From NCBI RefSeq assembly GCF_000296775.1, contig NZ_AJLE01000010.1, forward strand, positions 62,001-126,000: 64,000 nt of DNA. The letters run 5' to 3'. Shown piece after piece: positions 31,004 to 33,097 of this stretch; positions within the stretch are counted from its first letter, which is position 1; each line of letters starts with the position of its first letter. Source of the stretch: Sulfurovum sp. AR. Lineage in GTDB: Bacteria; Campylobacterota; Campylobacteria; Campylobacterales; Sulfurovaceae. Below the pieces are notes generated by a model. That model was not told the origin of the DNA. It made no database searches and worked only from the letters and a program-made list of their open reading frames with translations. The translations under genes were made by a program, and so were the position numbers.

Positions 31004-32092
31004 CTAAAGTTTCTTCTTTAATCCTTGAATTCTCTTGTATGCTCTGTTGATATGCTCCTCTTTCACCTCTCCATTTTGAACCAATGTGACTATAGTATCG
31101 ACCAGTTTTTTTGTACTGACGGTTTTTTTAGGATCCAGCTGGTTTCCTATCAGTAAGATATCATCTCCTGCATTGATCGCCAATTTAAGTGTATTTTTCA
31201 ACCCATATTTTTGACTGATCGCACCCATTTGAAGGTCATCTGTGATCACCACACCATGATAGCCCAGTTTCCAGCGTAACAACTTTGTAATCGTATTATA
31301 CGAGAGACTTGCAGGGTATTTGGCATCTATATTTTGGTTAAAGACATGGGCAACCATGACTGTATCTGCTTTGTCTTTTAAAAGTCTATAAGGTTCCAAT
31401 TCAATATCATCCCAAAGGTTCGTAATATCGACAAACCCTTTATGTGTGTCACCCACCGAAGAGCCATGTCCGGGAAAATGCTTGATGGAGGTAAGTACAC
31501 CATTGCTATGCATAGCATCGATAAAGGTAGATGCATAGGTAGCAACCACTTTTGGGTCTTTACCAAAGGAACGTCCCAAACCATGAATCACATGGTTTTT
31601 CCTATTGATATCAAGGTCCACCACCGGTGCAAGATCGTAATTGATACCTACACTGCTGAGTTCTTCACTCATTTTTGTATAGGTTTCTTTGATCTTACCT
31701 TGATCCATTTTGATCACATCTGATGCTTTGGGAAACTTACCGTAAAAGCCGTATTTGCTTTTAAGTCTTTGTACCTTTCCTCCCTCTTGATCTACCGCAA
31801 TCAGTAATTTCCCATCACTGCTGCATGCCTGAAGTTCTTTGGTCAGAGTGGCCAATTGTTCTTTTGTGGCAATATTCTTTGGCTTATTTTTATTCACCGG
31901 GTTATAATCAAATAAGATCACTGCCCCGAGGTTATAGTTTTCTATATCTTTACATATCTGACTCTCTTTAGATGCATGTGTACCATGAAAACCGACCATA
32001 AGTATTTGGCCGATTCTTTTTTCCAGTGACAACTCTTGTGCCCATGCATACGTACAAACAAACAATCCCAGACATAAAACTTTTTTTATCAT
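31004..32092 (-). CDS. nagZ: Secreted beta-N-acetylhexosaminidase (GH3)
   Basis: The 362-residue GH3 enzyme has a Sec signal peptide (VLCLGLFVCTYAWAQE). Motifs include RIGQILMVGFHG, DQEGGKVQRL, SIKHFPGHGSS (catalytic His region), VMVAHVF and VVITDDLQMGAI (nucleophile Asp). NagZ cleaves GlcNAc from muropeptides. The E. coli enzyme is cytoplasmic, so a signal peptide suggests a periplasmic form here. It has a minus-strand TATAAT promoter at 32120-32125. Confidence 0.9.
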   Translation of the reverse strand: MIKKVLCLGLFVCTYAWAQELSLEKRIGQILMVGFHGTHASKESQICKDIENYNLGAVILFDYNPVNKNKPKNIATKEQLATLTKELQACSSDGKLLIAVDQEGGKVQRLKSKYGFYGKFPKASDVIKMDQGKIKETYTKMSEELSSVGINYDLAPVVDLDINRKNHVIHGLGRSFGKDPKVVATYASTFIDAMHSNGVLTSIKHFPGHGSSVGDTHKGFVDITNLWDDIELEPYRLLKDKADTVMVAHVFNQNIDAKYPASLSYNTITKLLRWKLGYHGVVITDDLQMGAISQKYGLKNTLKLAINAGDDILLIGNQLDPKKTVSTKKLVDTIVTLVQNGEVKEEHINRAYKRIQGLKKKL

Positions 32093-32125: not shown

Positions 32126-32140
32126 GTGTAACTACTCTTT

Positions 32141-32173
32141 ATTTGCATACGGTTAACCTTCCTGTATTACACT
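32141..32173 (+). promoter_or_regulatory. Promoter/operator of tandem RNA 1
   Basis: ATTTG (32141-32145), 7 nt, TTAACCTT (32153-32160), 7 nt, TACACT (32168-32173) as a -10. It aligns base for base in spacing with the promoter of tandem RNA 2 and of the response regulator gene at 9688. The predicted start is A32180, exactly where similarity between the two RNAs begins. Confidence 0.6.
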
Positions 32174-32179
32174 ACACTT

Positions 32180-32280
32180 ACAAGAGCATCGAGGGACACC
32201 TAAAATATTACCCCTCCCTTTTATAAAGTATTTTAGGACTCCTTTTAAAAACATTTTCTCCTTGTCCCAAAGATGCTCTT
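32180..32280 (+). ncRNA. Tandem structured RNA 1
   Basis: This is a candidate RNA of about 100 nt. Its ends pair: AAGAGCATC (32182-32190) with GATGCTCTT (32272-32280), stacked on GGGAC (32193-32197) with GTCCC (32264-32268). Inside is a 9-bp hairpin CCTAAAATA / TATTTTAGG (32199-32207, 32229-32237) whose loop exposes CCCCTCCC. The 3' single strand carries ACTCCTTTT and TCTCCTT. These C-rich stretches complement Shine-Dalgarno-like AAGGAG/GGGAGG. There is no ORF and no obvious T-run terminator, so the 3' end is approximate. Confidence 0.65.
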
Positions 32281-32331
32281 AGAAAATACTTGATCCATTA
32301 TTACCCTCCCTGATTTATAATGTGTTCTTCT

Positions 32332-32364
32332 ATTAGTATTCAGTTAACCTTATATGACTATAAT
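32332..32364 (+). promoter_or_regulatory. Promoter/operator of tandem RNA 2
   Basis: ATTAG (32332-32336), 7 nt, TTAACCTT (32344-32351), 7 nt, TATAAT (32359-32364). This is a consensus -10 box with predicted start A32371. It shares element and spacing with the RNA 1 and response regulator promoters. Confidence 0.65.
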
Positions 32365-32370
32365 ACTTTT

Positions 32371-32475
32371 ACAAGAGCATCATCAAGAGATAGACCTCTC
32401 TCCCTAATATTTTTAGGTCTATTTCTCATATCATTTTTTCCCCTCCCCCTTTTACATACGATGATGCTCTTTGAA
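32371..32475 (+). ncRNA. Tandem structured RNA 2
   Basis: Paralogue of RNA 1. It starts with the same ACAAGAGCATC and closes with a perfect 12-bp end-to-end helix: AAGAGCATCATC (32373-32384) with GATGATGCTCTT (32460-32471). The inner hairpin GAGA-TAGACCT / AGGTCTA-tt-TCTC (32387-32397, 32415-32427) has a different sequence from that of RNA 1 but the same place, with CTCTCCCT in its loop. A CCCCTCCCCC run (32440-32449) lies in the single strand before the closing helix. The closing helix is longer and altered on both sides, which supports RNA structure. Confidence 0.68.
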
Positions 32476-32528
32476 AAAATCTTTTACAGAATTCGAACCA
32501 ATTACACGATTTTTACATCTTCATAGTG

Positions 32529-32534
32529 TATAAT
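32529..32534 (+). promoter_or_regulatory. -10 promoter of the TlpA-like gene
   Basis: TATAAT preceded by TAGTG lies 29 nt before the ATG at 32564. AAAGG about 9 nt before the ATG serves as ribosome binding site. Confidence 0.5.
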
Positions 32535-32563: not shown

Positions 32564-33097
32564 ATGAAAAAACTATTCACCATATCCCTTCTACTTTTAT
32601 CACTCTTCAGCTATACGCACGCAGCAGAAGATAAAAGATATTTAGCAGAAATGACCATGACCGACATCACAGGAAAAACCTATGACGTAAGAGGTACAGA
32701 ACAAGGTCTTAACATTCAAGGTCTTGAGGGGAAAGTCATATTTTTAGAATTTTTCGGACATAAATGTCCTCCTTGCCTCGCTTCAATTCCACATTTAATT
32801 AAGCTTCAGGAAAAATATAAAGACACTTTAGCCATTGTCTCTATAGAAGTACAAGGTTATACCCATGAAGAGGTCAAGAAGTTTGCGGAAGAAAAAGGTA
32901 TGAACTACATTGTAGTCTCCGAAGAGAGAGCAACTGAATTGGTAAATTATATTCAGCAAAGAGCACAATGGAGGGGAAGTATTCCTTTCTTGGTAGCCAT
33001 GGACACAAAAGGTGATGTACAATTTGTACAAGCAGGTATGCTTCCAGAAGCATCATTGGAAGAACTTCTCTCACAACTTTCCAAAACAGCCAAATAA
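32564..33097 (+). CDS. Periplasmic TlpA/ResA-like thioredoxin
   Basis: The 177-residue protein has a Sec signal peptide (LFTISLLLLSLFSYTHAAE) and a thioredoxin fold with active site CPPC in FFGHKCPPCLASIPHL, and a cis-Pro region (GSIPFLVAMD). TlpA/ResA proteins reduce periplasmic disulfides, for example in cytochrome c maturation. There are no cytochrome maturation genes next to it. A strong hairpin terminator follows immediately. Confidence 0.88.
   Translation: MKKLFTISLLLLSLFSYTHAAEDKRYLAEMTMTDITGKTYDVRGTEQGLNIQGLEGKVIFLEFFGHKCPPCLASIPHLIKLQEKYKDTLAIVSIEVQGYTHEEVKKFAEEKGMNYIVVSEERATELVNYIQQRAQWRGSIPFLVAMDTKGDVQFVQAGMLPEASLEELLSQLSKTAK

Follow-up and report, generated by a model that had tools for sequence, protein, structure and literature searches.

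What occupies the gap between nagZ and tlpA in Sulfurovum sp. AR? The question arises in a window of 64,000 nucleotides (nt), the whole stretch of DNA analyzed here (contig NZ_AJLE01000010.1, positions 62,001 to 126,000), and all coordinates of the units and their neighbors are positions in this window. Two 99-nt units, both oriented like tlpA, lie in the gap at 32182-32280 and 32373-32471, and a sequence-only reading had proposed that they are tandem paralogous small RNAs (sRNAs) whose ends pair with each other and whose C-rich loops block ribosome binding sites. We conclude that the two are probably Hfq-independent sibling sRNA genes that silence mRNAs, their CU-rich loops pairing with Shine-Dalgarno (SD) regions; a silencing role is likely because the loops are complementary to the sites at which ribosomes dock on mRNAs.

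Each unit opens with AAGAGCATC and closes with GATGCTCTT, the arms of an end-to-end helix that spans 9 bp in unit 1 (32182-32190 with 32272-32280) and 12 bp in unit 2 (32373-32384 with 32460-32471), just as the sequence-only reading had described. Its inner hairpins and C-rich unpaired stretches are likewise found where it had placed them. The hairpins pair 32199-32209 with 32227-32237 in unit 1 and 32386-32397 with 32415-32426 in unit 2, and carry CCCCUCCC and CUCUCCCU in their respective loops. Three predicted anti-SD stretches are present in unit 1: the hairpin loop CCCCTCCC (32211-32218), the unpaired CTCCTTTT (32239-32246), which is a third CU-rich stretch added to the two described earlier, and TCTCCTT (32257-32263), which follows a CAT that is antisense to a start codon. 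Unit 2 has the hairpin loop CTCTCCCT (32398-32405) and the unpaired CCCCTCCCCC (32440-32449), again after a CAT. The long 3' strand of both units is CU-rich and unpaired in the predicted fold, the unit interiors being 25% C and 8% G and mostly unpaired; unit 1 has an extra helix of GGGACA with TGTCCC. Both units fold far better than their dinucleotide shuffles (z -5.64 for unit 1 and -7.14 for unit 2, with 0 of 200 shuffles reaching these values), and the folding advantage over shuffles is greater on the plus strand than on the minus strand in each.

A DNA search of 60 relatives turned up homologs in many Sulfurovum genomes, and a scan of the genomes of 84,980 species with the pattern GTTAAMCT, 22 nt, AAGAGCAT, 72-92 nt, TGCTCTT returned 36 stretches, all of them titled Sulfurovum or other Campylobacterota or Epsilonproteobacteria metagenome-assembled genomes. 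In all, 82 distinct units were gathered, with lengths of 91-118 nt and a mean of 101 nt. A covariance model, which scores unit 1 at 66.4 bits and unit 2 at 65.9 bits, matches 73 of 78 Sulfurovum genomes with one to three copies each; many of these 78 genomes fed the model and several did not. Outside the genus a single borderline match (G166, E 0.005) was obtained among 397 genomes sampled across the phylum, and it may be due to chance because that many genomes were searched at such a score. We note that this match (L146 3160-3260), in another family of the order, spans 94 nt and has a long helix joining its ends, a TATACT box in front and a UUCCUUCCUUC loop inside, and is either fortuitous or a distant relative. 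A third AAGAGCATC...GATGCTCTT pair in the Sulfurovum sp. AR genome (C5:99009) is missed by the covariance model and was taken as chance. No match was found in Rfam 15 at the gathering cut-off with the window and five loci, and relaxing the threshold to E<=10 on the unit region gave nothing credible.

In nearly every genome it is the nagZ-tlpA gap that holds the units, always in the same orientation. In the window, nagZ is the divergent upstream neighbor (31004-32092, minus strand; an open reading frame whose name is that given by the sequence-only reading, with homologs in synteny), and the co-directional downstream neighbor is a tlpA-like thiol-disulfide oxidoreductase gene (32564-33097, plus strand; Pfam Redoxin and AhpC-TSA, and synteny). 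The complete genome G020 has no unit and no detectable nagZ. In one clade, to which G024 (2,562,277 bp) belongs, further copies stand after ilvC, ahead of the gene that follows it (L128 5698-5800; L131 4562-4834), and the two ilvC-site copies in L131 are near-identical, so that recent duplication or gene conversion also occurs. Units 1 and 2 fall into two paralog clades, with supports of 0.88 and 0.98 on a midpoint-rooted tree of the 82 short sequences. The divergence of the loops between paralogs, on which the sequence-only reading had remarked, is thus old, and both types have been retained, which fits partly different roles. We also note a unit of about 66 nt in G097 (L143 3080-3145) that keeps the promoter, the closing helix and CUCC motifs.

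Conservation of the end motifs stems in part from data selection, because the retrieval pattern for part of the set demanded an end motif. Among units chosen by promoter and 5' arm alone, however, the exact 3' arm is present in 83 of 84, and the sole exception, GATGCTTTT, still pairs via G-U. Aligned with MAFFT, 34 units give 90% pairing in the closing helix, compared with 42-54% when the helix is slid, and five of its pairs have two-sided changes. Its core is near-invariant, with compensatory variants AAGAACATC/GATGTTCTT in L007 and AAGAGTATC/GATACTCTT in L144. Two-sided changes are also seen in the inner hairpin, at four of eight pairs in unit 2 orthologs and at two of eight in unit 1 orthologs (94% pairing). 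Every covariation score lies above all 500 shuffles, a figure whose meaning is limited by the kinship of the sequences. Another genus of the family contributes a 92-nt unit in its own nagZ-tlpA gap (L173 2710-2801; G475:C138). Its promoter reads GGTTAAA...TATACT, its ends pair as AAGGATATCGGGC/GTCCGATATCCTT, and CAUCAUUUCCUCCUCCUUUU is among its CUCC motifs. In the core of this closing helix three pairs in a row are changed on both sides and are still predicted to pair, and this sister-genus form is the strongest single item for selection on structure. A second genome of that genus gives no match, and its short gap still shows CGGTTAACC; such a unit is missing upstream of nagZ in most of the other sister genera inspected. 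Both helices covary, and comparison of the sequences thus argues for a structure under selection. The proposal of paralogous structured RNAs with end-to-end helices has therefore fared well: its closing helices are conserved in relatives, both in the 34-unit alignment and in L007, the opposite of the outcome that the sequence-only reading had named as refuting it, and the covariance search bears it out across the genus, as does the promoter shared by the 82 units.

That promoter is part of an upstream repeat of 51 nt that runs to the end of ACAAGAGCATC and over which units 1 and 2 share 73% identity. The repeat includes GTTAACCTT and a -10 box (TACACT in unit 1, TATAAT in unit 2) with identical spacing in both. 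In a logo of the 82 units, counted from AAGAG, TATTAGTATNCGGTTAACCTT occupies -42 to -22 and TATAAT occupies -14 to -9, and the spacing does not vary. The corresponding features are the element TATTTGCATACGGTTAACCTT at 32140-32160 and the -10 box at 32168-32173 for unit 1, and TATTAGTATTCAGTTAACCTT at 32331-32351 and the -10 box at 32359-32364 for unit 2, all on the plus strand. The start of ACAAGAGCATC, at 32180 and at 32371, lies 7 nt past the -10 box and is the likely transcription start of each unit. In eight genomes the promoter element is above background solely at the units; a wider regulon was considered and rejected, as matches elsewhere occur only at the rate of a reversed control pattern. 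Neither unit's promoter was called in a consensus promoter scan, and the evidence for the promoters is conservation, not the scan. On this evidence the units have their own conserved predicted promoter sequences. A separate conserved promoter region, TTACACGATTTTTACAT ... TGTATAAT, lies on the plus strand past the units at 32502-32534 and is attributed to tlpA from the gap sequences of relatives; a TATAAT-like box is present in 58 of 59 distinct gaps, in a weak test that allowed one mismatch.

The anti-SD motifs predicted by the sequence-only reading prove to be general, as CCTCC is on the transcribed strand of all 82 units, with a mean of 1.9 per unit compared with 0.11 in shuffles and 0 on the opposite strand. 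YCTCCTT is present in 73 of 82 units, and CTCC occurs 3.07 times per unit. A CAT stands 3-10 nt before CTCC on the 3' strand in 44 of 82 units, where 19.8 +/- 3.6 are expected from shuffling of the non-CTCC letters, and this arrangement would therefore be antisense to an SD sequence, spacer and start codon. The motifs match the SD sequences of the organism's own genome, in which GGAG and AAGGA peak 9-12 nt ahead of the start codon. Target statistics were computed on a sample of about 364 kb of this genome, with 307 genes and an unbiased choice of starts. Initiation regions are more complementary to both units than the interiors of genes are, and at certain word lengths the excess over shuffled units is clear (for unit 1, 3/300 at 6 nt; for unit 2, 2/300 at 8 nt). 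This amounts to a mild bias toward initiation regions, the excess over shuffled units being weak at other word lengths.

The best match in the sample is the gene of an outer-membrane beta-barrel protein (OMP; PF13505) at G000:C6:220929, on the minus strand. Its leader contains AAGGGAGGGGTAA, 2 nt before the ATG, in which 13 nt over the ribosome binding site are perfectly complementary to the loop of unit 1, and genome-wide this 13-mer is present solely at the OMP leader and as the antisense of unit 1. Orthologous OMP leaders retain G-rich SD sequences; the closest ortholog of the gene is in G020, the genome in which no unit was found, and pairwise co-evolution of the leader with the sRNA loop across species was not established. 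We treat the OMP mRNA as a weakly supported candidate target, a lead and not a finding. Directly before the OMP gene is a gene for a DUF11-repeat protein with a C-terminal hydrophobic segment and a basic tail (L214 3259-5983; G000:C6), and a small membrane protein resembling an exosortase is encoded nearby.

No match to the Hfq profile (PF17209) was found in the Sulfurovum sp. AR genome, which is 99.69% complete; the same profile matches 5 of 14 control genomes. Membership in the class of Hfq-dependent sRNAs, which calls for a genome-encoded Hfq, thus appears not to apply. Helicobacter pylori and Campylobacter jejuni regulate by sRNAs although they are not known to encode Hfq, for which our own test covered the Sulfurovum sp. 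AR genome. In the mechanism that we propose, each RNA of about 100 nt would be made from its own promoter, and a helix of 9-13 bp would join its 5' and 3' ends, presumably shielding it from decay without Hfq. The inner hairpin and the unpaired 3' strand would expose two or three CU-rich segments (CCCUCCC, UCUCCUUUU, UUUUCCCUCC), which may pair with the SD sequence of a target, its A-rich spacer and, in many copies, its start codon. Such pairing would block ribosome binding and repress translation in trans, and copies with different loops would distribute the repression over different targets.

Several observations weigh against this interpretation, the evidence for which comes from sequences. 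A scan for intrinsic terminators at the units found none, and their 3' ends are therefore unexplained; the bases past the 3' arm are usually TGAAAA-like, with no U run. A few members are odd, such as the short unit of L143, in which there is no room for the inner hairpin. The enrichment at initiation regions is modest, and at some word lengths it does not reach significance. As to the OMP gene, shuffled versions of unit 1 reach at least 13 nt of complementarity in 5 of 300 trials (p ~0.02), and a second genome of the species has both units without a close homolog of the gene.

Other explanations must be weighed against the same data. The absence of a terminator between the units and the downstream gene, and their invariable position ahead of a co-directional gene in both genomic settings, would suit a cis-acting leader of that gene (tlpA, or the gene after ilvC in one clade), acting as an attenuator or a riboswitch-like 5' untranslated region. 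We consider this unlikely, since the tandem units each carry a promoter, tlpA is preceded by a conserved promoter sequence of its own past the units, the gap from the units to tlpA varies from 51 to 363 nt, copies also stand elsewhere, ahead of an unrelated gene, and no part of the fold can reach the tlpA ribosome binding site. Rho loading (rut) sites are C-rich, G-poor and unpaired, and the composition of the largely unpaired unit interiors is what would be expected if the RNA bound a protein, either as a rut site or as a decoy for ribosomal protein S1, a cold-shock protein or PNPase. There is little probability in this, however, as the motif is specifically CCUCC or UCUCCUU flanked by U or A, which complements the SD sequence of this genome, and often stands at SD-to-start spacing after CAT, neither of which is needed for rut or pyrimidine binding; nor does a rut site need a closed fold with conserved ends.

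It is highly improbable that the units are DNA elements, with the terminal inverted repeats of a miniature mobile element or an inverted repeat that binds a protein. Near-identical 9-bp inverted ends some 99 bp apart, and the several copies in some genomes, have that appearance, but the changes in the helix are compensatory, including the three core pairs in the sister genus, the inner hairpin covaries too, and the conserved promoter is outside the repeats; moreover, one fixed site is occupied in nearly all genomes by one to three copies, and target-site duplications and scattered copies are not seen. Equally improbable is a function of the minus strand as the ribosome binding site and start codon of a small protein. 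On that strand unit 1 gives GGAGAAAATG and then an open frame, and a frame of at least 20 codons exists in 17 of 82 units, but 40 of 82 have no SD plus start, the frame ends within 10 codons in 13 of 82 (that of unit 2, ATG ATA TGA, is one of these short frames), and the conserved promoter reads the opposite way.

If the units are indeed Hfq-independent silencing sRNAs, a near-universal Sulfurovum sRNA that combines a self-closing fold with anti-SD sites offers a testable case of stability and target finding without a chaperone, and the covariance model permits annotation of the family throughout the genus. A bolder extension, to which we assign a rather low likelihood, is that the units constitute a genus-wide scaffold with a fixed closed architecture and promoter, and with CU-rich segments that differ from paralog to paralog and from species to species. 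It would be an Hfq-free mimic of the 3' end of 16S rRNA, would damp translation of many mRNAs at once and would answer to a dedicated regulator acting at its private promoter element GGTTAACC.

How, then, do the units compare with known systems? No paper on a Sulfurovum sRNA was found in the open-access literature, judged by title and abstract, with subscription papers and raw RNA-seq data outside the search, and the literature searchable here has almost nothing on sRNAs of chemosynthetic Campylobacterota. Within the phylum, the paralogous sRNAs CjNC1 and CjNC4 of C. jejuni are about 44 nt long, with sigma-28 promoters and a 3' terminator stem-loop (PMC4626219), whereas the units are about 100 nt long and have a promoter with a TATAAT-type -10 box. 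RepG of H. pylori, also of this phylum, pairs through a C/U-rich terminator loop with a homopolymeric G repeat in an mRNA leader, and has no homologs outside Helicobacter according to its authors (PMC8295292); the units share with it a C/U-rich loop that would pair with a G-rich leader, but they have no terminator, and the RepG locus and architecture are unlike theirs.

Further afield, LhrC1-5 of Listeria monocytogenes are multicopy sRNAs that bind SD regions through three redundant sites rich in C and U (CUCCC...UUUU), and their effect on lapB, a surface protein mRNA, dispenses with Hfq (PMC4132741). The units are similarly multicopy (one to three per genome), with redundant CU-rich sites, but both of their ends lie in one helix, and they lack the terminator or U run, LhrC having a 3' intrinsic terminator hairpin with a CU site. 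NmsRA and NmsRB of Neisseria are tandem siblings, about 70% identical, with two predicted anti-SD motifs each, and Neisseria Hfq is discussed as their possible partner (PMC5362039). Our units too are tandem siblings with anti-SD motifs in each; they differ in coming from an unrelated phylum, with no Hfq found in the Sulfurovum sp. AR genome, and in that units 1 and 2 diverged long ago in hairpin and loops, whereas the NmsR siblings are near-identical in structure. The alpha-r14 or cuckoo RNAs (NfeR1 of Sinorhizobium) have redundant anti-SD motifs CCUCCUCCC in unpaired regions and variable stem sequences, and are built as three separate hairpins that all bear CCUCCUCCC in the loop (PMC10746234). 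The unpaired anti-SD CU motifs of the units recall this arrangement, and some units contain the exact string CCUCCUCC; on the other hand, they combine a long closing helix with a single inner hairpin and an extended open 3' strand whose motif is in no hairpin of its own, and they have no sequence or Rfam link to these RNAs of Alphaproteobacteria.

We therefore do not file the units under LhrC or RepG, which pair by a terminator loop, or under alpha-r14, with its three separate hairpins, and no Rfam model matches at threshold. The sequence-only reading had likened them to RepG and to the CCUCCUCCC RNAs of Alphaproteobacteria, a likeness that appears to hold for the way of working and not for membership. 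By analogy, LhrC, alpha-r14/NfeR1, NmsR and RepG would be the functionally nearest systems. We regard the putative sRNA family of Sulfurovum, and its structural form, as new; its functional kind, that of anti-SD CU-rich sRNAs, is already known.
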